27,996 nucleotides of DNA. Source: Saccoglossus kowalevskii. Its lineage: Eukaryota > Hemichordata > Enteropneusta > Harrimaniidae. The notes under the pieces were generated by a model. The model worked only from the letters and a program-made list of their open reading frames with translations, was not told where the DNA came from and did not search any database. Positions 2,853 to 27,996 of this stretch are shown here, piece by piece. The stretch's first letter is position 1. Each line of letters opens with the position of its first letter. The stretch is taken from positions 896,305-924,300 of the forward strand of contig NW_003120918.1 of NCBI RefSeq assembly GCF_000003605.2, written 5' to 3'. A program made the position numbers and the translations under genes.

Positions 2853-3284
2853 CCATTTGTTTATTCTACACCTGTAGATACGTTTTGGTTATCAGCATTA
2901 AAATCTAAAACTGTTTTTCATTGTGTCTGTCTACCCTTTATAGCTGTTTTTTTATATAGTATCTATAGTATTGTTTTATGTTTTTAAGACAATAAATTCA
3001 TCTAGACGAAACAAACATTTAAGCCCGGGCTGCTGAACATTTGTGTTATATGAGGTTTGATCGGGGCGCGAATTGCACGGTGACTCCTTCGATGATTCTA
3101 GTCACTTAAACATATCTAATTAAAGCTTGGTAAGGTCTCAGTTTGTAGCCAAAGTCACCATCGTTGTTAATATGAGACCCATATATCTCGCGCAAACGTG
3201 GCACGACGACTACCGGCCTTTAAATATTTCGCCACTAATCTGTTTTTTCTGTGATTGCTTTAAAATCCTTCAAATGCAGCAGTA
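2853..3284. other. Intergenic stretch, no feature seen
   Basis: AT-rich with an isolated AATAAA near 2991; no ORF, no splice pattern and no repeat recognised. Confidence 0.4.
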
Positions 3285-3960
3285 GTTTAAGTTACATTAT
3301 AGGGACGACCATGAGGGCGCTGTTCATAGGTCGGATGCGATGACGTCATACGGGATGGATGACGTCTCAATGGGGGACCGTGCATAGATGAGCAGAAATG
3401 ATGACGCCACAATGGGAATTCGTGTATAAATTAGCATAAATGAGCGATCATGGCCGTAAAGTGGTTAATTTGCGTGAGGATGACGTCACAGTGGGATATT
3501 GTGAATACACTTGCATACATGAAATTGATTTGAATACGAGGTCGTAACGAGGTCATCGTAAATGCATTTGCATAAATTACCATCATTTTTTTTTTTTTTT
3601 TTAATTGGATTTTTGAAAATTTATTTTTAATTGGACGAGTATGGACGTCACGAACAATTTTTCAGAATGTATCGTAGAGGGCGCTCACACACGCACACAC
3701 ACTCACACGCTAATAAATACGTCATTTTGAAAACTAACGGAGTTTATTATACAAAAATGGGTAAAACATCGAAGAACAGTGACGTGGAATATACATTTTT
3801 TTTTGTTTGTTTGAGTAAATAATAAAAAAAGAATGGATTAAAAACTGAGTAATATATAAGAATGATATTATTAGTAATATTTAAGAATAAAAAATGACAT
3901 TTTAGAACGGTTGAAATACATAGAGTATTCTTTCAAATGCGGTTAAGTATTTACACTGAG
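3285..3960 (+). repeat. Dispersed repeat 'A' with CRE-like sites
   Basis: This 676-bp block is matched in reverse orientation at 17838-18739. The shared ends are GTTTAAGTTACATTATAGGG on the left and GGTTAAGTATTTACACTGAG on the right. It has no clear terminal inverted repeats, no target duplication and no coding capacity, so the class is open (long MITE, SINE-like or Helitron fragment). Inside are TGACGTCA palindromes at 3341-3348 and 3481-3488, variants at 3360-3367 and 3402-3409, an ATTTGCAT octamer near 3565, poly-T, a short CA-rich run near 3690-3710 and a CTCF-like motif at 3672-3686. Confidence 0.85.
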
Positions 3961-5582: not shown

Positions 5583-5960
5583 GTAAAATAAACAGGTTTC
5601 TCCTGTTCAAAAACAGTTCATGAATCCAGGGGGAAAATCAATGTTGAGTTCGCTAAGGTGTTGAGAGTTGGTTGTCAGACCTGTGTCATCATGATCCAAT
5701 TTTATCTCACAAACAGACCACACAGACACACAGATGTCCTGTTCAAAAACAGTTCATGAATCCAGGGGGGAAATCAATGTCAAGTTTGCTGAGGTGTTGA
5801 GCGATGGGTGTCAGACATGTGTCGTCATGATTCAATTTTATCACACAAACAGACCACACAGATGTTTATAGTAAAATAAACAGATCCCATCTGTTCCTGG
5901 GATCCAGGGGAATATGAATGTCTGCTATCTAAGGTGTTTGAGGGTGTCAGATCTGTTATC
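5583..5960. repeat. Tandem repeat of about 136 bp at 3' end of the Ngaro-like element
   Basis: Two good copies (starting 5601 and 5737, both TCCTGTTCAAAAACAGTTCA) and a third, diverged and shortened copy (about 5871-5960). Each contains ATCCAGGGGG, GGTGTTGAG and ACAAACAGACCACACAGA. The third copy overlaps the tail of the recombinase frame, so the array starts inside or just after that ORF. It may derive from the element's 3' terminal repeats (Ngaro elements carry split direct repeats), although no match to the 5' terminal repeat was found. Confidence 0.75.
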
Positions 5961-6620
5961 AAAAACACAAATTTGTAAAGACACTCCTCGCGGTAAACGA
6001 GTAAAAGGCAGAGAGTGATCGGACAAACTGCATTGCGTGTTGGAAATAATTGCAGGTGGAAACCCTGACGGTCTGTATTTGAAGACTTGATGTGCACTGT
6101 TACAGACTTAATTGAATCTTTTTTATTATTGATGATGACATCCTTTATGCAGAGATGAATATTGGGGTTGAAACCATTCACTAGGGCAGTAAACTCATTG
6201 CAGTGCAAGAAGCCAAAAAAGGCAAGGGTGAACGATGACCTCAAAAGTAAATCTGTGTAGCTCCATATACACCGCTTTGCAGAAGCACACACAATTGCTT
6301 AAGGATGTCCACTGTTATGGGCAAACGTGGGCGAGATGAAGAACCCTGTGTCCATTGAATCCCTCTCAACACATAGGATAGACGAGTGAACTCCAAGCCC
6401 TCGGATGTGATCATGGGGTTTCCATAGCCTCCCTGAATGTAGTGGTTCCGAATTGAAGCGAGGTAAACTTTAATCGTGGATGCACAGTGAGCTGCAAAGT
6501 AAATTACAGTGTCTTCTGAAATATCTGGATAGGATGCTGCAGCACCAGGTAACTCGAAGAAGGTGGCAGCCATGCACGCACTCCTGTTGCATAGGACTGG
6601 TGTGTCCTCGTGCTGAGGGA
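5945..6620 (-). pseudogene. Tyrosine recombinase of the Ngaro-like element, broken
   Basis: Three frame segments follow each other: SYATGVRAWL near 6600 (core-binding start), then DTVIYFAAHCASTIKVYLASIRNHY and YVLRGIQWTQ...RPRLPIT (6241-6540), then DLLLRSSFTLAFFGFLHCNEF, KSSNTDRQG and ITLCLLLVYREE (5945-6290). These match the order of DIRS/Ngaro recombinases, which integrate circular cDNA. The first catalytic Arg, expected in FFGFLRxxEF, is His here; CAC versus CGC is the change expected from CpG decay. The C-terminal H-x-x-R...Y box is not found: the frame runs instead into the tandem repeats. At least two frameshifts. Not functional. Confidence 0.75.
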
Positions 6621-6769
6621 GGCATCCTAAAAGTGCGAAATAGCATCATTTAGCCAAACATTATTTCGCAAGTTATTGGGCACGGCTGTTCTTGTGCGAG
6701 TGGGGCTGCTTTCTAGAAACGACGAACCTGTAAACGTTATAGCGAATCAGCAATAATGTTAATAACGTT

Positions 6770-8098
6770 AATGTATATGTTCTGCCTGGAAAGTGAAGCT
6801 ATCAGTGGCTGCTAGAATGACTAGGCGGTGCATGAGTTTCATTATAGCTAGTGACTTGTTAATAATGTTCACCACTGCTAGATTGTCACAATGAAATAAC
6901 ACTCGCTTACAGCACCAGTGTTTTCCCCAAAGGAAGCAAGCAGCAACAATAGGATATAATTCCTGTGTTGGGTCATTCTCCAGAAGAAGCTCATTGGACC
7001 AGGGGGCTTGAAACCATTGACCTTGATAGTAGCCCCCATAACCAACACCACTGGCATCAGTGAAAAGCTCCATACTGGATGATGGTGTTGTATGTACATC
7101 TAAGAACATGGAAATGCCATTCCAGTTAGCCAGCAACCTTTGCCACATAAATAAGTCCTGCTTGGCCTCTGTAGACAAGGTGACGAAGTGATGAAAGCAC
7201 TTGACCCCCTTTGAAAGTTCGATGAGACGAGAAATAAAAGTTCTACCAGTAACAAATGGCCTAACAGACTCAAAAGGTTGCACTTTGTGCAAGTTTTGTG
7301 GTTGATAAATGTAAGTAACATTTCTCGGATGCGAGCTAATTTGTCCATGGGAGCCGTGCATGCATGTGTTGATTCCTAAATACTCGATTGTGCAGCTAGG
7401 GCCTACTGTTTTGTGAGGTGCTAGTGGTATGCCTAGACGTTTAAAAATCAAAGTCAAGACAGCCATGGTTCTTTCTGCTTCGGCATTTGGCAAGTCAACG
7501 GTGAGGAAGTCGTCCAGCAAATGGAAAATAGTCTTGATACCATAGTTGTTTTCTGCGATCCAACAAATCGCAGATGACAAGTGATCAAAAATCTTAGGAC
7601 TTGAATGACAACCAAAGGCCAGACGCGCAAAGTATGATAGCTGCCAATAAATTCCATATAAATGCCACAAATAGGGGTGGATCGGAATGAGCTTAAATGC
7701 GTCTACAATGTCTGTTTTGCATAACATGGCTCCAGCACCAGCTTTATTGATCGCGGCAATAGCAACGTCTACTTCCACATACGTGAGTGAAAAGTCCTCC
7801 TTGTTAATGAGTCCATTAATACTTGGTGTTTCGGAATCACGAGAAGAGGACAGGTGGACGTTAAGCCGCTCTTTTGTAGAATATTTCTTCTCCACTAGAC
7901 CAATAGGGCTACATCGATAATGTGTAAAGGGGGAGTTGGGAAAGGACCCGTTAAATAACTTTTGTCGACCTCTGTTCGTACGAGTTCTGAAATAATGTCT
8001 GGTTGATTGCGAGCAGATGAAAGATTACGACACACCAGAGAAGTAGTAGGTGGATTATGTATGCCTGTATCGAAACCTTCAGTCAGGCCACTAATCAA
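6770..8098 (-). pseudogene. Reverse transcriptase / RNase H of the Ngaro-like element
   Basis: Starts near 8098 with LISGLTEGFDTGIHNPP and continues after a frameshift at about 7917 into a 375-codon open stretch. RT landmarks: SPIGLVEKK, MLCKTDIVDAFKLIPI, CHSSPKIFDHLSSAI and the polymerase box HLLDDFLTV, all intact. RNase H follows with LFTDASGVGYGG, ELYPIVAACFLWG and LFHCDN, so the acidic residues are kept. The linker to the recombinase (IIADSL.RLQV.RF, near 6745-6700) is only readable in another frame with stops. The enzyme copies element RNA in the cytoplasm or nucleus. This central ORF is the best preserved part of the element. Confidence 0.85.
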
Positions 8099-8126
8099 GC
8101 AGGATACAAAATAAGAGTCGGGTGGT

Positions 8127-8953
8127 TCAAAAGTTCATGTTGGAGCCTTGAAATGTTAACTGTTGGCACTGGATAGCACAGTGGTCGTTGGCATGGCAAG
8201 ACAAGCACAAAGGAGCAAAGATGCAGTTTGGTTTGCTACACCCCTTTGACGAATTAAAAGTATTACACAGTTCTATTCCCTGGAAGGTTACACATCGCCG
8301 ACTCATTCTGTCGAGTGTATTGTTATTGCCAGTGGCCAGTGGGATCTTTTGATTAGACATTCTCCTTGATGCATCAGGGCAGGAAATTGCTGAATGACCA
8401 ACACCCCCGCAAGTAGAACAGGAAATAGCGCGACATTCGGCGAAAATAGAGCAGTAAAGTTGGTTGTCATGACGTGACCAGTCCACTTTCACGTTATGGT
8501 TCAACAATAGAGTTGCGGCTCTCACAGAGAATTCATGGTGATACTGGAAAGAAGTCGCACCACCAAAACAGAAACTCATTTCGACGATGTCACGTTAATA
8601 TGCATCAAGTTCCTGCCGGCATGCGAGATAAGCTTCACACATCACGTTTTTTTAGATGGCAAAAGCCAAAATAAATTCGGAAATGGACAGGGAATGCGAA
8701 AGTATGTTATCCGTAGGGGCATGCAATGTAAAAGCCTCAGCTCCAAGAAGGTCGCATTTGTTGTCGTTGCCTCATTCTCGATCGGTTGCGTTTGTGTGTT
8801 CATTACTCCACTCCCGTTAGGAGTGCCGTTCATAACTCCCTGTACGGGTGTCGGAATTGAACGTGATCGCGTCACTGGCATTGAATACGGTTGTATTCTT
8901 GATGAAACACCACTGGTTTTCCTTGACTGACGCCCTTTTCCTCGAGGAGCCAT
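8127..8953 (-). pseudogene. Gag-like ORF1 of the Ngaro-like element
   Basis: ATG at 8953 begins MAPRGKGRQSRKTSGV, a basic Ser/Thr-rich start, and reads about 100 codons before a stop at 8642. After a frame change and a TAA near 8595, the second half (8579-8127) contains FQYHHEFSVRAATLL, VDWSRHDNQLY and a zinc knuckle CSTCGGVGHSAISC (C-x2-C-x4-H-x4-C), then a second cysteine cluster, CNTFNSSKGCSKPNC with FAPLC..C...H....C. This pair of cysteine regions is characteristic of metazoan DIRS/Ngaro ORF1. It would package element RNA. The first part is shorter than usual for the family, so an internal deletion is likely. Confidence 0.75.
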
Positions 8954-12401: not shown

Positions 12402-12451
12402 NNNNNNNNNNNNNNNNNNNNNNNNNNNNNNNNNNNNNNNNNNNNNNNNNN
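12402..12451. other. Assembly gap, 50 N
   Basis: Fixed-length run of N between the arms of inverted repeat 'D'. True size unknown. Confidence 1.
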
Positions 12452-15689: not shown

Positions 15690-17836
15690 ATAGCTCCAAC
15701 ATGTCTAAATGACCTACACTCGTTACATGGGATGAAATGACGTCTACAGATATCGAATCTAAATACAAGCAATATCGAAACATTCTGACAAAACTGTTAA
15801 AATTGGCAAAAAAAACGTTATTTCAAATATAAATTTATTTCCGCAAATGGGAATACGAGTAAGATTTGGATAACAATTAACAGCATTTTAAATAAATACA
15901 ATAATATGACCACCCCTCAAAGACTTAAATCACCGACGTGATGCTCCCGATAAAGTTTTGACAGGAAGTTGCGATATTGCAAATGAATTCAATAATTACT
16001 TTACAAATATTGGCCCTGAGCTAGCTAGAAAAATTCACACATCTGTAAATTTTAATCACTATCTCACAGGGAATTTCCCGTCGTCCCTTTTCCTCCAAGC
16101 AATCACAGGACGGGATATTATGAAATTTCTTTACCGATTAGAAAGCAATGGGACATGATCACGTGTACCCCAAACTTGTAATTGATGCTGTAAAGTATAT
16201 TAACCTCTAGCGCACATTCTTAACTGTTCTATAGCTCAAGGTATTTTTTCTGACTCTCTGAAACTCGCCACAATCACACCTGTATATAAAAAGGGATCTG
16301 CCCTGGATGTCGGCAATTATAGGCCCATATCTATTCTACCCGTATTCAGTAAAATATTTGAATCAGCTGTAAATCATCAGCTACTTGGTTTCCTAAATAA
16401 GTTCAACATACTCTTGTCCTCGCAATATGGTTTTCGGAAAAAAATACAGTACCGCCCTTGCCCTAGTTGACCTTGTTTCTGATATCACTGCCAACATGGA
16501 CAACGGTTTTTTTACATGTGGGGTATTCATTGACTTAAACGAGCATTCGATATTATTGACCACAATATTCTCCTTAAAAAACTGGCTTATTATGGGATAT
16601 AAGGGGGTCTCCTGCTTTCATGGTTTCGAAGCTATATAACTAATAGACACCAAACAGTAAACATTGACGGAACTGCATCCACACCCAGACAGATTCAATA
16701 CGGGGTGCCCCAGGGATCAATATTAGGACCTTTACTTTTTCTTCTCTACATAAATGATATTCACCACTCTACTGATGCTTTCAATTTCCACCTCTTTGCG
16801 GATAATACACATTTATTTAAATTCCTGCAAACTAACACTATTGATCTTTCTAATATTAACAATGATTTTGAAAATGTTGTACAGTGGTGCAAAGCTAATA
16901 AATTAACAATTAATGTAGAAAAAACAAACTATATGATCCTGAAAACCCCGCAAAGATAAGTAAAAGTGGAGGGACAGCTTGCAATCAATGATACGTTGAT
17001 AGAGGGCGTGTCTAAAGCCACTTATCTGAGAGTAACCATTGACCCATGCCTAAATTGGAATTCTCATATTGCAAACATTGTGAAAACCATTAGTCTCAAA
17101 GTGGGCATTATATCTCGCATTCGTTCCAAGATCAATTCTTATCCTACTTTACAACACACTTATTCTCCCACACTTAATGTACTGTATTGAAATCTGGGGA
17201 AACACATACCCAACACTTCTTGAACCAGTTCTGTTCTTACAAAAAAAAAGTTGTGCGCCTTATCACCTTCTCGCACTTTAAAGCACATTCTGCTTCTCTT
17301 TTTATCCAATTACGCATAATTGATATTCACAAACTTTGTAAATTACAAACCTGCCTATTTATCTTCGACCTTAAACACAACAGATATGCACATAGCCTCA
17401 ATAAGTATGTTAATGATTACCCACATTGCTATCCCACAAGTTCAGTGTCTAGTGGTAACTTGTCAATTCCTGTTGCTCAACTTACAGTTTCACAACATAA
17501 TTTAAATTTGCTGCAGTAAAACACTGGAATTCACTTCCAGACTCCCTCAAAAACATCAACAACAGAAACAAATATGAAAATATGAAATGAAACATTATTT
17601 GCTTTGTTAAATTCTTGGATTACCTTCCATTTCTCTGCATTTTTTTAATTTTTTTCTTTTATTCTACATTTGTAAATTGTAAATTTCTACTTGACAGTCT
17701 GGGCCATGGACTGGACTAGTCCATAAGGACTATTTCCATGGTCCCCACCGGAATTACTACTATTGTATTTTGTTTATAAGTTCTGTTATAATGGTCATAC
17801 TGGTGAAATAAATTAAAAAAAATCTGATTCTGATTT
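15690..17836 (+). mobile_element. Jockey/CR1-like LINE, 5'-truncated
   Basis: The element begins in the linker between endonuclease and RT (IESKYKQYRNILTKLLKLAK, near 15750) and ends in a 3' tail with AAATAAATTAAAAAAAA and two TCTGAT units at 17819-17835. The 3' untranslated part contains GGACTAGTCC and paired CCATGG words at 17704-17742 that can fold. No target duplication was identified, and repeat 'B' directly abuts the tail. Confidence 0.85.
15735..17519 (+). pseudogene. LINE reverse transcriptase, frameshifted
   Basis: RT blocks in order: ANEFNNYFTNIGPELARKI (15980), LATITPVYKKG and NYRPISILPVFSKIFE (16265-16360), SSQYGFRK with an A-run frameshift near 16440, YSTALALVDLVS, GVFIDL with a deletion after it, YGVPQGSILGPLLFLLYIND (16700-16760), HLFADNTHLF, and WCKANKLTINVEKTNYM (16890). 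The catalytic box FADD is FADN here, so the polymerase would be dead even without at least four frameshifts. The C-terminal region (YCIEIWGNT, KKVVRLITF, LRIIDIHKLCKLQ) is typical for this superfamily. The endonuclease domain is absent. Confidence 0.85.
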
Positions 17837-17837
17837 A

Positions 17838-18739
17838 CTCAGTGTGAATACTTAACCGCGTTTGAAAATGTATACTCTATCGTTGAACCATTTTAAAATG
17901 TCATTTTTTATTCTTAAATACTACTAATAATATCATTCTTATATATTACTCAGTTTTTAATCCATTTATTTGATTATTTACTCAAACAAAAAAAAAACAA
18001 AAAAACAATAACAAACAAAAAAAATGTATATTCCATGTCACTGATCTTACTAGTTTTACCCTTTTTTTGTCAGTTTCATAATCAAATACTTAACCGGGTT
18101 TGAAAATGTATACTCTATGTATTTCAACCATTTTAACATGTCATTTTTCATTCTTAAATATTACAAATAATATCATTCTTATATATTACTCAGTTTTTAA
18201 TCCATTTTTTTTATTATTTACTCAAACATAAAAAAATATATGTTCCATGTCACTGATCTTAGTAGTTTTACCCATCTTTTGTGTATAAAAATGACGTGTA
18301 TTTATTAGCGTGTGAGTGTGTGCGTGTGTGTGCGTGAGCGCCCTCTACGATACATTCTGAAAAATCTTTCGTGACGTCCATGCTCGTCCAATTAAAAAAA
18401 TCCAATTAAAAAATAATTAAAAAATTGGAAAAAAATGATGGTAATTTATGCAAATGTATTCACGATGACCTCTTACGACCTCGTATTCAAATCAATTCTA
18501 TGTATGCAAATGTATTCACAATATCCCATTGTGACGTAATCCTTATGCAAATTAACCCCTTTACGGCCATGGTCGCTCATTTATGCTAATTTATGCAGGA
18601 ATTCCCATTTATGACGTCATCGTTTATGCTAATCTATGCACGTTCCCCCATTGTGACGTCATTCAACCCCCCGTATGACGTTATCGCATCCGAACTATGA
18701 ACAGCGCTCTCATGGTCGTCCCTATAATGTAACTTAAAC
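17838..18739 (-). repeat. Dispersed repeat 'B', inverted partner of 'A', internally duplicated
   Basis: Reverse complement of 3285-3960 with one extra copy of the end region: the stretch from CTTAACC..G to GTAGTTTTACCC occurs at 17848-18061 and again at 18089-18272. Regulatory-looking words are better preserved here than in 'A': ATGCAAAT at 18448, 18504 and 18545, ATGCTAAT at 18583 and 18626, TGACGTCA at 18612 and 18654, variants at 18532 and 18675, and a minus-strand CTCF-like site at 18336-18350. Confidence 0.85.
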
Positions 18740-20086
18740 GACTTGCAGCCTATGTATAGTGGTGCAAATACTTGACTACGGTGGAGAGCCTACAGCACTG
18801 AAGCCTAGAATGAGTGTACCACAGTACTGGCCTATTTTTGTTTGTTTAAATAATCATTATGGTTCATAACTGGTGGTTCACTATCTAATTGAATTAGAAG
18901 AATTGATAGATTATAGTAATTCTTGTTCATTTCACCCATGAATATGTTTTCTAATACTTTCTAAAATAAAGTGTTTGCTGTTAAGTTATTGTGAAAATTT
19001 ACAAAAATAACATTTTTTTTACGGAAAATAAGACAACTTTGATGACCTACATAATAATAAAGTGATAATTTGAGTACATTCGGATATGTTGGCACTTTTT
19101 ATTCATCCAGTATGCTATGCCGTGCAGAGCGCCTATTGGTCGATTGAATAATGACGTGGGTTTAACTAAACGATATACAAGTAGTGCTCGAGGTCGATGA
19201 AACCAATTACCAGATGTATCAGGAACAGAACGCAATGACACATATACATACATAATCTCCATCCGTAATCGTTCTGGTTTTAATTTAAGACATTCCCTTA
19301 ATTTTATTCTGAAAATGGCACAACAACAAAGAATACATGATATATATAATTTCTATCAACGATTCATGGTTTGAGGAATTACATGCCTACATACATGAGC
19401 TTATTGCCCCCTTTTCACCAAATACAGAATATAGTTTATACCACACTTGACTTGAGTGAAACTTCAATGTACATTATTCATAATTATATGTAAGCTTTTC
19501 CCAATATTCATTTTTCAATAAATGTTACCAAAAACTGGTTTCCAAGTTAATACTCTTAAACCTTTAAACAAATATATAACTACCCTCAAACCCCAAAACA
19601 ATAATTAACATAAATACTTAAATGTCTCTTTAAAAACTTTGGCTATTCAAATGCACATAAGTGTATAATAATATGTTCGAAAGAGATATTAGAGAACCTA
19701 CAAATCTTTTACCTCAGATGGGTCATACAAACTTAGCTCTTAGTTTAACAATAAATTCAAGTCAAGATTGCAAATCCATGCAATCAATATTCGACATTGG
19801 TTTGACATTATTCAATGAAAATGAACAAAAGATTAATTTGAGCGATCATATGACTGTGAACAAAATAATGCATAGACATTTGGAGATCAATGGCTTGTAG
19901 AAGTCACAAACTTGTACTTGATCGTTAAACGCTGTAAAGTTAAAACTAGCTGAACTGAATGATTCACTGGTTAGAGATGTAAATGAAGAGATGTTACTGA
20001 TCAAAGCCGGCTTCTAAGTTCCAAGGAATTATGCAAATAACGTCAAATTATTTCTTTTTGTACACCTTTCTGTTGTAATGAATACG
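18740..20086. other. AT-rich intergenic stretch
   Basis: No gene assigned. A minus-strand 71-codon ORF starts at an ATG at 19262 (MEIMYVYVSLRSVPDTSGNW) and a plus-strand frame at 19661-19900 (with LFNENEQKINLSDHMTVNK) look more protein-like than average but lack recognisable motifs or splice support. Confidence 0.35.
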
Positions 20087-20252
20087 TTAAAGGGCGGGAG
20101 TGGTCACCTGCGCATGCGCCAGATGGCCATAGCGTGTCATTGTTTACAAACAAGCGTCTACCCATAGGCCATTGCGTTTTTAGCGTGTGTTGTTATGATC
20201 GCTTGGGACTCAATTCCCGCGCGTGCGCAGGTGACGACCCTCCCGCTTTAAA
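20087..20252 (-). mobile_element. TTAA-flanked MITE, complete
   Basis: 166 bp bounded by TTAA at both ends (20087-20090 and 20249-20252), with imperfect inverted repeats of about 29 bp: AGGGCGGGAGTGGTCACCTG on one side and, reversed, AGCGGGAGGGTCGTCACCTG on the other. Non-coding. The TTAA borders are the target signature of piggyBac-type transposition. It lies 12 bases beyond the stop codon of the dioxygenase gene, so it is probably in that gene's 3' untranslated region. Confidence 0.8.
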
Positions 20253-20264
20253 TTGCCACCAGGA

Positions 20265-21260
20265 TCACTTATCAAGCAGAATTGGTTTCACATACTCGGG
20301 ACTACGCGACCCCATATACTCGGGTCTGGCATCCCATGGAGCACTAAACGCGTTCACCAATTTATTATTCACACTGTTATATACCGGTAATATATTAACA
20401 CGATTCCATGGTGAACGATTGCTATGACTACCATGAATCAAATTTACATCGAAAAAAACGACAGACCCAACATCGCCTAAACAATACTCAATACCATATG
20501 CATTTGCCAAATTAGCAACTAACATGTTATCGGTTTCTCCAGCCGTCAATTTGAACTTAGAGGCCGTGGTAAGGTGGTCAGCCGGTGTTTCAACAGCGCC
20601 GCTTAAGAATACTCTATGCGATTTCGGTATAACCATAATCGCCCCAGACTCGCATGTATTCGTTGATAACATTATAATACACGTTTGCGCTCTCATCCTT
20701 GGCATGCCATCTTCGGCGTGAAATATTTCGAAATCACTATGCCATGTATATCCAGTAGCAGTAAATGCTTGGTGAAAATTGATCGCGCACTGGTGAAGAT
20801 ACACATCATCTCCTAATATCTGATGAACATGGGAAACAATTTTTCTGCTGCGTAAGAGATTGTCCACGGATGCAAGCGTGTTATGCGCCCCATAGACACT
20901 CCGTAATTTGTTTGTACCCGGTTCCGTGACAAAGTGACACTTATCAGTGATCGTTGGGTCATCGCCATAAGTGATGTTGTTTTGAATTTCGTATGTGTGT
21001 TGTGTTACTTCCTCAATGACCGGTTTCAGCTCATCTCTCGTGAAGAAGTCGTGTAGTGCGATAAACCCTCTTTCTTCATATTCATCCAGTTGTTCGGGCG
21101 ACATTGGTCCCCCTGCCCTCGCACCATTCCTCGTCCACACGATTGGATCTAGGCGTGGATATATTCCTGTAACCCCTTTACGACTAGGATAGTAATTCTT
21201 ATGAGACGAGGTGCTGTGATACGTAATGTGATGTGATGACCACTTTGGAAAATTGGCGAG
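20265..21260 (-). CDS. Ectoine-hydroxylase-like (EctD/PhyH family) dioxygenase
   Basis: Fe(II)/2-oxoglutarate oxygenase of the phytanoyl-CoA dioxygenase superfamily. The open frame runs from 21260 to the TGA at 20265. It has YPSRKG near the N-terminus (about 21197), LDPIVWTRN, MSPEQLDEYEERGFIALHDF, HQCAINF, then YTWHSDFEIFHAEDGMP, close to the EctD signature. Counting from the GTG codon at 21140, iron ligands are H134, D136 and H236 (LIHGSHSN) and the 2-oxoglutarate Arg is R247; the 102- and 11-residue spacings agree with bacterial EctD as I recall it. Signature positions Thr-Trp are Ile-Phe here and HQSR is HQCA, so the substrate may not be ectoine. No ATG precedes YPSR in frame: a 5' exon is needed, and splice-acceptor-like sites occur at 21243-21244 and 21214-21215. 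No stop or frameshift; no intron over the domain. Confidence 0.85.
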   Translation of the reverse strand, partial: LANFPKWSSHHITYHSTSSHKNYYPSRKGVTGIYPRLDPIVWTRNGARAGGPMSPEQLDEYEERGFIALHDFFTRDELKPVIEEVTQHTYEIQNNITYGDDPTITDKCHFVTEPGTNKLRSVYGAHNTLASVDNLLRSRKIVSHVHQILGDDVYLHQCAINFHQAFTATGYTWHSDFEIFHAEDGMPRMRAQTCIIMLSTNTCESGAIMVIPKSHRVFLSGAVETPADHLTTASKFKLTAGETDNMLVANLANAYGIEYCLGDVGSVVFFDVNLIHGSHSNRSPWNRVNILPVYNSVNNKLVNAFSAPWDARPEYMGSRSPEYVKPILLDK

Positions 21261-21600
21261 CTATCACTGTTGGCAGTCGATGCACATAATTTCCGATGTG
21301 GCACAGAAACATTTTCAAGTGTCCTGAACAAAATGAAAATAGAATTTAGTTCAAAAAATTATGCTACTAAACATTGCTGCCTAATATTTTATCCAGGGCT
21401 TTGTTAAAGTAATTTTACTTCATTGTTCTTAACAAAAAAACGTCGCAATAAAGGGCACAATTGACTTTGAAGTTTATTGAAATTGTCACTATTGTCTGCG
21501 CATTTTGACTCGGAGTGCATTTGATACAAATAAAAAGTAGTGTTTTTATGTACGTCAGTTTTATTTTAGTAAGATCGTGACAAGCCTTATGGGGGTGAAA
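21261..21600. other. Upstream region of the dioxygenase gene
   Basis: Contains a good minus-strand acceptor, ATTTTCATTTTGTTCAG, ending at about 21326, which would open an exon in another frame (LENVSVPHRKLCAS) that does not join the dioxygenase frame directly. The first coding exon is not identified. Confidence 0.35.
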
Positions 21601-23391: not shown

Positions 23392-24399
23392 ATGGCGCTT
23401 TCCGTAGATCGGCTGAACTTGATATAACTATCTGTTAAATATATCTATGAATCTATGGGGTAGAATCTGATGAGCATTGAAATGACTGATTTGCATAGCT
23501 TTCAAATATTAAAAACATATTTTTGGACACAATATCAACATAATGTGAATATGAATTGTGACACAGTGATATTTGCTGAAATACTTACGTACTTACATTA
23601 CTCAGAACATCTAGACTTGTCGGACAAACACTATCATCATAGTGTAAATATTAAATGTGGCACTGTAATATATGCAGGCAGGCATACATACGCGACATCA
23701 CATCAGCCCGACATTTTCAATTAACATGGCCTTCAAATATATAGAATTTGTTGGACATATAATATCAATATAATACTAATTAATGTGTCGAAAATTAAAT
23801 GGCTGGGCATTTCAAACATATACATCGATTTTTCAATAAGTGTTTTTCATGAGATGCACATATCCATTGATACGTGTTCCCTACATATATATTTCATGGC
23901 GCTTTCCGTAGATCGGCTGAACTTGATATAACTATCTGTTAAATATATCTATGAATCTATGGGGTAGAATCTGATGAGCATTGAAATGACTGATTTGCAT
24001 AGCTTTCAAATATTAAAAAAATATTTTTGGACACAATATCAACATAATGTGAATATGAATTGTGACACAGTGATATTTGCTGAAATACTTACGTACTTAC
24101 ATTACTCAGAACATCTAGACTTGTCGGACAAACACTATCATCATAGTGTAAATATTAAATGTGGCACTGTAATATATGCAGGCAGGCATACATACGCGAC
24201 ATCACATCAGCCCGACATTTTCAATTAACATGGCCTTCAAATATATAGAATTTGTTGGACATATAATATCAATATAATACTAATTAATGTGTCGAAAATT
24301 AAATGGCTGGGCATTTCAAACATATACATCGATTTTTCAATAAGTGTTTTTCATGAGATGCACATATCCATTGATACGTGTTCCCTACATATATATTTC
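23392..24399 (+). repeat. Nearly perfect 504-bp tandem duplication
   Basis: Copy 1 is 23392-23895, copy 2 is 23896-24399. By eye they differ at one base (AAAACAT versus AAAAAAT near 23516/24020). The junction shares ATG. Within each copy three diverged sub-repeats of 95-135 bp can be seen, all with GGACA.A..TATCA..ATA.T. The 84-codon ORFs in both copies are a by-product. Confidence 0.95.
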
Positions 24400-26190
24400 A
24401 TGTCCACACGACACGGGTCGAGTATTTAAAAATGTTGCAAGAACTTGAAAGTTTATATTACTTAGTAATACGTACGGTCCATTTTTTTGGTAGAAAGTGA
24501 GTGAAGTTGTAAAATGGTTGTTCATAGTATCCACAAAAAAACATCATAGGAATATATCTCTAGCATACTGTGGTTTCAGACATGGCGTGCAATGTTGATC
24601 GAAATTCTTTTTCTGGGCTGCTTTGACTTCACCGATACAGTACTATAAACAGCTGTGAAAATGGATAAATTGTATAAAATATGTATCTAACTTACAGGTC
24701 AGTCTAGGGAGTGTTTCTTCTTTGTTGGTCAAGTAGGCTATTGTGATAATTCAGTGACGCGTTTAATATTTCCAGTTTTGTTACCAGTAGAAATGAGAAA
24801 ATATGGTTGTTCGAAATGTTAAAAATAATGCCCTGAATTATCTGTTTATTTTTGGGTCAGTGTTTTGTTTGCATACGTGTATCACAAACATGCACTATAT
24901 ATACGACATATGGTACACGACATCAACCCTAATGCACCCTAAAAGGGACCCATTCTTTTATAGGAAAAAAATAACCAAATCTTTTAAACAGGAGAGGTGT
25001 TCAATTTCAATTCCTAGCGGGATTTTTAGCCTGGCGCCAGACCACATTCGGACCACACTAATTATTGACTTTAAAAGAAAAAAACGCCACCTAGTGTCTG
25101 AAACTATCGGTATATTCCGGGAATATTCGGACTTACGATATTACAAACAGTTATTACAGATATATATTATTCAGTCGGCAACGAGCCATATTTTGGCGTG
25201 GGCCAGCTAGTTACGTCACAGTTTGAAAATGGGCATAAGGACCAAGCAAATTGGTGGTAACGTCTGTGATATCGACAATATCACACGTCATTGTCATGCT
25301 ACACGTGACAAATCAATATGTACCATCAACTCAGGGTATGCAAATCGACACCGACCTTTCCCTCGCTTGACATCAACAGGACAAAACGCGTTAATAAATA
25401 CGAAAACCAAAGCGCCAACGGTGTCGTTTTCGAGATTATGCCCACTTAGTCCAAAACTGACAAACCATTACAAGGAAAATATATAAAATATAGTCAAATT
25501 GTGACACCGAAGTTTTCGCGAAAAATATTAAACCTCCCAATGTATAACACATAAATATGAATAATCCTAAATTGCTACGTTTTCTTCAAATACCCAACCA
25601 CAGTCCCCCAGTGATAGAGCGACTGTGGCCCAATGTAGAGAATAACACTAATACATAATTGTATAACCGACAATCGGGAACGATACTTTTCCACTTTTTT
25701 TTTAAATTCGACGAGCATGCGAATAATACTAGTAACAAGTATTGCCACCTCTTCTATTTGTGGTCACGCGGAATAGATTAAATTATATTGTATCACGTGT
25801 GACGGTCTTTCAACTATCACGGTTTAACTCATTAAGCCAGGTCACGGGTTACTTACAGCTTTTCATCCACGAGCGCAAAGCCACACCACGCCAATAATAT
25901 GTATAATATATATATTACCAGTATTTCAACATAACAAATTTGCATGTCGTTTTACTTTGTCAGGAGTTGAAAAAATTAAAAATGTTACTAATAACTACGC
26001 CATCAATGCACTGTACTACTGACTGGCGATCTCATATTGCTCTCGGTACAGAACAAGCGGCAGCCTGTTACCACGTTGTCACGTGACAATACTCAACATA
26101 ACAAACGGTAACACGTGTTTATGATTTAGGGTCAGACCAGGGTAGAAGCAAGGGGGAACCCAGACACTGTTCCATACATGCGATCAGTCT
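24400..26190. other. Intergenic stretch
   Basis: No gene assigned. A 135-codon ATG frame (24803-25210) starts MVVRNVKNNALNYLFIF but has no family motif and is compatible with chance in this composition. A minus-strand CTCF-like motif, GACACTAGGTGGCGT, lies at 25098-25084. Confidence 0.35.
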
Positions 26191-26393: not shown

Positions 26394-26645
26394 AACACGT
26401 CAACGCATTTACTGGATCTACCATTGCAGTCTATACAAATCTAACAATTGGGTATCGCATTGTACTGCTGACTATATCGTTTATTACGGCGTGTTTTCCA
26501 TATCAATCAGTTTTTACCCCTTCTCTGGTGAGTATTGTGATAACACACATGCGACCTCGTTATATTAACGAAAATCACGCCATTATTCACATTGAGACCG
26601 GAGAATGAATAAGGCTTACGTTGCAGGTACACCGAGTCTGTAGGC

Positions 26646-27067
26646 GCATGTAATATACAAGTAAATATTGAAAACGCGTGTGATATACAAGTCACTATTG
26701 GGGATGCGTGTAATATATCTGTGATTATTAAAGACGCATATAATATAGAAGCCTTTATTAGAGACGCGCGTAACGTTCAAGTCATTATTGGAGACGCGTG
26801 TAATATATACAGTACAAGTCATTATTGAAGACCCGCTTAATGTACAAGTCGTTATTGGAGATGCGCGTAATATACAAGTCATTATTGGAGACCCGCGTAA
26901 TATACAAGTCATTGTTGGAGACCCGCGTAATATACAAGTCATCATTGGGAATGCGTGTAATATATCTGTGATTATTAAAGACGCGTATATTATAGAAGCC
27001 ATTATTAGAGACGCGCGTAATATACAAGTCATTATTGGAGACGCGTGTAATATACAAGTCATTATTT
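26646..27067. repeat. 30-bp minisatellite, 14 units, with higher-order structure
   Basis: Consensus unit GCGCGTAATATACAAGTCAT then TATTGGAGAC. All units are 30 bp except unit 6 (26796-26832), which has 7 extra bases. Units 3-5 recur as units 11-13 (units 3 and 11 are identical), so an eight-unit block of about 247 bp was duplicated. Each unit contains one or two CpG pairs. Confidence 0.97.
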
Positions 27068-27563: not shown

Positions 27564-27996
27564 ATTAAAGGGAACGATGGTCTCTCTGCTGATTTTTATA
27601 AGACATTTTGGCCAGTAATAGGAAGGTATTTGCTTAATAGTATTAATTATTCATATCATAAAGGTCTATTGGGGGTGTCACAAAAACAGGGTGTCATCAC
27701 AACACATATTTCAAATTATCGGCCAATATCTTTAATAAATGTAGATGTTAAAATTGCATCCAAAGCTTTTGCAAAGCGTATGCTTAATGTCTTGCCTTCC
27801 ATAATTCATCCAGACCAATGTGCATTTGTAAAAGGCCGCTACATCGGGGATGCTATACGAACAGTTCTTGATCTTATGTGGTACTCTAAACAGAATGATA
27901 TGTCAGTGTTCTAGTGTCTCTAGATTTTCACAAGGCATTTGATTCGGTCGACCATAGGTTTATTATTGAAGCCTTAAAGAGTTTTAACTTTGGTGA
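27564..27996 (+). pseudogene. Tx1/L1-like reverse transcriptase, partial, runs off window
   Basis: After a TAA the frame reads IKGNDGLSADFYKTFW, GLLGVSQKQGVIT, NYRPISLINVDVKIASKAFA, PDQCAFVKGRYIGDAI and a stop at 27912; a shifted frame continues with LVSLDFHKAFDSVDH, the first catalytic Asp block, to the window end. The PGNDG-like start, SVSQ-x-QGVIT and VKGRYIGD are typical of the Tx1 branch of L1 elements, which often insert at specific targets. About eight residues normally found between GVIT and NYRPISL are missing. One frameshift near 27914. Endonuclease is absent on the left, so the copy is 5'-truncated. Confidence 0.8.

Follow-up and report, generated by a model that had tools for sequence, protein, structure and literature searches.

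The window analysed here is a 27,996-nucleotide stretch of the Saccoglossus kowalevskii assembly (contig NW_003120918.1, positions 896,305 to 924,300), and its minus strand carries an open reading frame at 20265-21260 whose product resembles the ectoine hydroxylase EctD. The frame runs for 331 codons from stop to stop, without an internal stop or frameshift. A first-pass annotation of this DNA had proposed an EctD-like gene here, and the profile searches bear this out. The predicted product, hereafter the window protein, matches Pfam PhyH (PF05721; E = 6.1e-22, 79.4 bits against a gathering score of 22), which places it in that superfamily. It also matches the NCBIfam ectoine hydroxylase model TIGR02408 over profile positions 1-273 of 277, at 1.2e-73 and 247.9 bits. 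Using phmmer against the PDB sequences at an E-value of 0.01, we found six distinct sequences: two of EctD, three of proline hydroxylase H11 and the leucine hydroxylase GriE. The solved EctD sequences 3emr and 4mhr match at 8.4e-52 and 1.9e-50; the three H11 sequences carry a phytanoyl-CoA dioxygenase label in the phmmer list and are titled proline hydroxylase H11 in the structure comparison. A chance open reading frame is ruled out by the PhyH, TIGR02408 and solved-EctD matches, which lie far beyond chance. The features of the gene are as follows.

20265-21260, minus strand: open reading frame of an EctD-like PhyH-fold dioxygenase, with its TGA stop codon at 20265-20267
21135-21191, minus strand: EctD-type N-terminal motif YPSR...RLDPIVW, residues 24-42, which aligns with the EctD N-terminus and is not in the non-EctD relative L006
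20772-20795, minus strand: strand HQCAINFH, residues 156-163, with VsEctD Gln-129 and Asn-133 retained, Arg-131 replaced by Ala and Lys-135 by His
20700-20750, minus strand: EctD signature YTWHSDFEIFHAEDGMP, residues 171-187, with iron ligands H174 and D176 and 12 of 15 fixed positions retained
20400-20435, minus strand: H276, the last of the three iron ligands, together with S278 and R287, the arginine of the 2-oxoglutarate site
20313-20327, minus strand: RPEYM, residues 312-316, equivalents of SaEctD Arg-280 (retained) and Leu-284 (Met)
21199-21344, minus strand: possible 5' end, comprising a polypyrimidine tract that ends in CAG at 21324 (tract and AG, 21344-21324), an ATG at 21312 and a 37-codon frame with its stop at 21201-21199

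The comparison rests on an alignment of 90 rows (7 plasmid, 80 genome and 3 viral). Rows that retain WHSDFETWH in this alignment are called EctD-type, and L091, which was used in the tree and in the TIGR02408 scoring, is so called from its position in the tree; counts over 88 rows leave out the non-EctD rows L006 and L007, and three rows that contain a stop sign because they extend past or start before a stop codon (L009, L040 and L077) were retained in the column counts. The genome rows are the 80 loci retained, of at least 588 relatives in at least 593 stretches, from a scan of genome contigs. To these 80 the window protein is 34-41% identical, and a closer bacterial relative than the retained loci may exist. 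A scan of viral contigs with the single protein gave seven pattern matches and no relative, and with an alignment as query it gave 19 matches and three EctD-type loci; a phage scan gave no match. The three viral loci (L088-L090) are IMG/VR contigs, and the EctD-type proteins that they encode share 30-35% identity with the window protein. The row L091, a Rhodococcus plasmid locus (1384-2310), encodes a protein annotated only as phytanoyl-CoA dioxygenase about 1.1 kb from the ectoine/hydroxyectoine transporter gene ehuA.

In this alignment the N-terminal YPxR...RxDPVV segment of EctD is present in the window protein, and since it shares a frame with the core, the conserved coding part extends to at least about 21191. 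The iron triad H174, D176 and H276 (EctD His-146, Asp-148 and His-248) is identical in all 88 EctD-type rows, and S278 and R287 of the 2-oxoglutarate site are likewise retained. The iron and 2-oxoglutarate ligands have the bacterial spacing that the first-pass annotation had described. Among columns at least 95% conserved in the EctD rows the window protein matches 54 of 77, and among those absolutely conserved 35 of 44. Five of the nine absolute columns that it has lost fall within residues 158-180. The viral-contig row L090 retains 59 of 80 such columns, yet it has WHSDFETWH, Arg-131 and Lys-135. The window protein also has a 10-residue insert (residues 90-99) found in none of the 90 rows.

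Some of the changed residues lie in and beside the pocket. A 17-residue signature, F-x-WHSDFETWH-x-EDG-M/L-P, is reported to be invariant among 71 EctD proteins (PMC2871039). The window protein departs from it at three of the 15 fixed positions, Phe143Tyr, Thr151Ile and Trp152Phe in VsEctD numbering. The first-pass annotation had described the signature as almost complete, with Thr-Trp changed to Ile-Phe; both of those changes are real, but the tally missed the tyrosine. Small departures from the signature do occur in other EctD-type rows, with 14 of 15 positions retained in L088 and L005 and 13 of 15 in L089 and L090, although none of the 88 EctD-type rows has Thr-151 or Trp-152 changed. Those rows never vary at residues 159 (R), 163 (K), 179 (T) and 180 (W), where the window protein has A, H, I and F, and residue 171, its Tyr, is F in 85 of the 88 and W in three. 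The replacement of Arg by Ala after HQ noted at first pass (VsEctD Arg-131) is accompanied by loss of a second invariant residue, Lys-135, to His. N161 (VsEctD Asn-133), which the window protein keeps, is likewise invariant. Because Arg-131 and Lys-135 lie on the same strand as Gln-129, we infer that they are pocket residues; several further changed residues between 193 and 243 probably correspond to the lid described for VsEctD. The contacts reported between SaEctD and its product are Gln-127, His-144, Thr-149, Trp-150, Arg-280 and Leu-284 (PMC6890836). Three of these six are identical in the window protein (Gln, His and Arg) and the others are Ile, Phe and Met, the Leu-284 position being variable among the 88 rows (I 62, L 22, V 2, M 2). 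With its signature at 12 of 15 and its product contacts at three of six, the protein is rejected as a bona fide EctD, and the earlier suggestion that an altered pocket leaves room for another substrate agrees with these changes.

The window protein nevertheless falls on the EctD side of the superfamily. In a 36-row tree it groups with 26 EctD-type rows against nine other PhyH rows (100/97), and a profile built from it and 21 EctD-type rows scores human PHYH and PHYHD1 at 49-52 bits against 428-443 for EctD. These results place the window protein, as judged by sequence comparison, in the EctD lineage, and an old transfer from bacteria appears likely. Its predicted fold is closest to the solved EctD structures, and human PHYH and PHYHD1 were not among its phmmer PDB matches up to an E-value of 0.01. 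A PHYH or PHYHD1 paralogue is rejected for the human PDB proteins compared, as the window protein is far closer to EctD by profile and fold; the nesting among animal PhyH proteins that the first-pass annotation had considered is not seen for these two.

We propose, with moderate confidence, that this is a nuclear eukaryotic gene for a putative EctD-lineage dioxygenase that depends on Fe(II) and 2-oxoglutarate and would act on a small zwitterion, probably not ectoine. The cofactor chemistry is established for the EctD family and is expected to be alike here: Fe(II) would be bound by H174, D176 and H276 and 2-oxoglutarate by R287 and S278, a ferryl species would form with O2, and a small zwitterionic metabolite held by the retained Gln157 and Arg312 would be hydroxylated. 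Both this chemistry and the substrate class are deduced from the residues. Since five invariant or near-invariant residues in or beside the active site are changed, the substrate is probably not ectoine. Retention of the Gln and Arg suggests that a small zwitterion is still bound. Its ring or side chain is probably another one, given that the Trp and Thr contacts are lost along with Arg-131 and Lys-135, and the substrate might be another ring or betaine-type solute, or a proline-like amino acid. Some EctD enzymes are reported to hydroxylate proline and one of them pipecolate, and homoectoine is accepted too (PMC6890836). Such shifts of substrate do happen, since 2'-O-methyl nucleosides are the substrates of one enzyme that is described as a near relative of the bacterial ectoine dioxygenases (PMC12709175). 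A shifted function thus seems most likely, and an ectoine-directed or decaying gene less so.

Several points weigh against this proposal. PMC6890836 warns that the substrate promiscuity of EctD is not deducible from sequence. The window protein forms a long branch (2.35) whose position within the tree was flagged as unsure, and approximately unbiased (AU) tests reject none of three placements relative to the EctD rows (p = 0.238 for a position outside all 26 EctD-type rows, 0.411 for one with the viral rows and 0.142 for one with L009). Descent from an old eukaryotic EctD is possible. According to unpublished data cited by Reuter et al. (PMC2871039), EctD with Ala, Trp or Tyr in place of Phe-143 was inactive, and the tyrosine of the window protein would fit a dead or weak enzyme equally well. 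As the three viral-contig rows carry Trp at this position, either that rule is not general or the viral proteins have no EctD activity. Finally, there is no in-frame ATG before 21104 (residue 53).

The alternative that survives best, though unlikely, is a true ectoine hydroxylase that converts ectoine, made by the host or supplied by food or symbionts, to 5-hydroxyectoine despite the altered pocket. EctD is the nearest family by profile, fold and N-terminal motif, and the Gln, His and Arg contacts are retained. At 247.9 bits the window protein does not reach the TIGR02408 equivalog cut-off of 336.5 bits, but this failure is not decisive. Among the 10 proteins scored only L009 (400.1 bits) lies above the cut-off, while five EctD-type rows, from viral contigs and from plasmids of Rhodococcus, fall below it as well (L005, 324.7 bits; L091, 315.6; L088, 284.5; L089, 188.5; L090, 173.2), four of them, L005 and L088-L090, with WHSDFETWH. 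The window protein lies inside this failing EctD-type range (173-325 bits) and outscores the three non-EctD rows (120-186 bits; L006, 186; L094, 170.2; L098, 119.8). Reviews report EctA- and EctC-like sequences in Branchiostoma and Saccoglossus (PMC5924519, PMC5796728), and two coral genera are reported to have an ectoine synthase domain (PMC11639872). Against these stand the changes at three of 15 signature positions and three of six product contacts. Moreover, partial queries for EctC (two) and EctB (one) gave no match within the 28-kb window at an E-value of 1, although operon neighbours may separate in eukaryotes; EctC is present in 69 of the 98 fetched loci.

A decaying relic, that is, a once-transferred gene that has lost its start codon and stays open because its decay is young, is quite unlikely. 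In its favour are the missing in-frame ATG before residue 53, the splice-like tract followed by an ATG in another frame, the Tyr at Phe-143, the repeat 13 bp from the stop codon and the many repeats nearby. The 331 codons without a stop or frameshift, the 54 of 77 conserved columns and the intact iron triad argue against it, and the missing ATG would be accounted for by initiation at Met53, which leaves the PhyH core intact, or by a further exon upstream. The 5' end could equally reflect a short intron, an error of assembly, decay of the start codon, an exon some distance upstream or initiation at Met53. The 37-codon frame from the ATG at 21312, which differs from that of the enzyme, contains no Asp or Glu and, judged by eye, hints at a mitochondrial presequence. 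The description of the frame as intron-free thus stands for the conserved part, which lies in one frame, but not for the 5' end, as no ATG precedes the YPSR motif.

It is improbable that the window protein is a nucleoside-directed enzyme like bacterial FJS, demethylating 2'-O-methylated nucleosides as PHYHD1 also does. One paper reports that FJS is a near relative of the ectoine dioxygenases of bacteria and that this demethylation occurs in bacteria, fungi, plants, invertebrates, vertebrates and a virus (PMC12709175). The wider tree of the same source, however, groups FJS with PHYHD1, and the window protein, which we compared with FJS by description only, has the EctD N-terminal motif, 12 of 15 signature positions and its distance from PHYHD1.

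The gene sits in eukaryotic repeat-rich DNA, whose main features are these.

12402-12451, no strand: scaffold gap of 50 N, the only N run in the window, which leaves the gene on a contig spanning 12452-27996
16204-16959, plus strand: broken reverse-transcriptase pieces (16603-16959, RVT_1 at 2.6e-12, above the cut-off; 16204-16470, 3.7e-4, below it)
20087-20251, no strand: repeat resembling a miniature inverted-repeat transposable element (MITE), bounded by imperfect 33-nt terminal inverted repeats (20087-20119 and 20219-20251) and lying 13 bp past the stop codon
27564-27914, plus strand: second reverse-transcriptase fragment, on the other side of the gene (RVT_1 at 4.4e-8, above the Pfam cut-off)

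The reverse-transcriptase pieces at 16603-16959 and 27564-27914 are on the same side of the N gap as the gene, and as RVT_1 matches above the Pfam cut-off they confirm the eukaryotic transposon surroundings claimed at first pass; the adjoining 15910-16158 gave no match. A 139-nt part of the MITE-like repeat (20113-20251) has a second copy at 907-1044 with 91% identity, and the repeat at 18084-18743 has a copy across the gap at 3281-3952 (86%). The chimeric contig that the first-pass annotation had considered is not seen, the repeat beside the stop codon being a dispersed repeat of the scaffold. Bacterial contamination or a chimeric scaffold is very unlikely, even though the relatives recovered come from bacteria or viral contigs, because the gene's contig carries dispersed repeats and reverse-transcriptase pieces with no N between them and the gene, identity to the 80 retained loci is low, and third-position guanine-plus-cytosine (GC) content is 0.408 against a flank GC of 0.349, the last being weak evidence.

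Elsewhere in the window, a retroelement-like cluster on the minus strand (5825-8594) contains a zinc-knuckle open reading frame (0.008) and a reverse-transcriptase open reading frame at 6768-7895 (RVT_1, 9.8e-5), both below the cut-off; it also contains frames without a Pfam match that look, by eye, like a tyrosine recombinase, so that it is perhaps DIRS-like. When 2801 open reading frames of at least 100 codons from the 98 fetched loci were compared with the window by tblastn, two of the 116 matches fell outside the gene. These were minus-strand matches of the EctD proteins of L060 (7409-7233, 4.5e-5) and L079 (7412-7257, 1.3e-5), at 35-36% over 63 and 53 amino acids, and as they lie inside the reverse-transcriptase frame we take them for chance. 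A 507-bp tandem duplication (23392-23898 and 23896-24402, 99.8% identity) is either very recent or an assembly artefact, and an imperfect repeat array at 26642-27066, with units 73-86% alike, is open in several frames. Scans of the window with Rfam at the gathering threshold and for tRNA genes gave no match.

To our knowledge, ectoine chemistry was long considered restricted to prokaryotes. If our proposal is true, a eukaryote has retained the EctD scaffold and altered its substrate, which would suggest that the host contains a hydroxylated solute not recognised so far, and the residues to examine are those named above. A doubtful extension is that a eukaryote, perhaps a marine animal, converted a bacterial EctD to a new solute hydroxylase with a rebuilt pocket and a leader hinting at a mitochondrial presequence such as that predicted for the enzyme of the protist Halocafeteria. 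Among the open-access papers listed by our literature searches we saw none on an animal EctD, although animal EctA and EctC were present there. Eukaryotic EctD is described in the protist Halocafeteria seosinensis, whose ect set contains introns, includes ectD and has predicted mitochondrial targeting signals, and in a dinoflagellate with a fused frame containing ectD (PMC5924519, PMC5796728).

Compared by description, the Halocafeteria seosinensis gene is likewise a eukaryotic ectD thought to have been acquired from prokaryotes (PMC5924519, PMC5796728), but it differs in having introns and predicted mitochondrial targeting. Human PHYH and PHYHD1 are only 14-19% identical to the window model over the aligned fold. 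The trans-3/4-proline hydroxylase H11 (7dzz) and the leucine hydroxylase GriE (5nch) reach 24-32% over the fold, and their alignments start at model residue 49-52 and so do not include the EctD N-terminal motif. With EctD itself (TIGR02408; 3emr, 4mhr and 4q5o) the window protein shares the PhyH-type fold, the iron triad, the 2-oxoglutarate Ser and Arg and the N-terminal motif, keeping Ser and Arg of the EctD site residues Ser, Arg and Phe and having Tyr for Phe. It differs from EctD in its score below the cut-off, in Phe143Tyr, Thr151Ile, Trp152Phe, Arg131Ala and Lys135His, in the insert at residues 90-99 and in its eukaryotic location.
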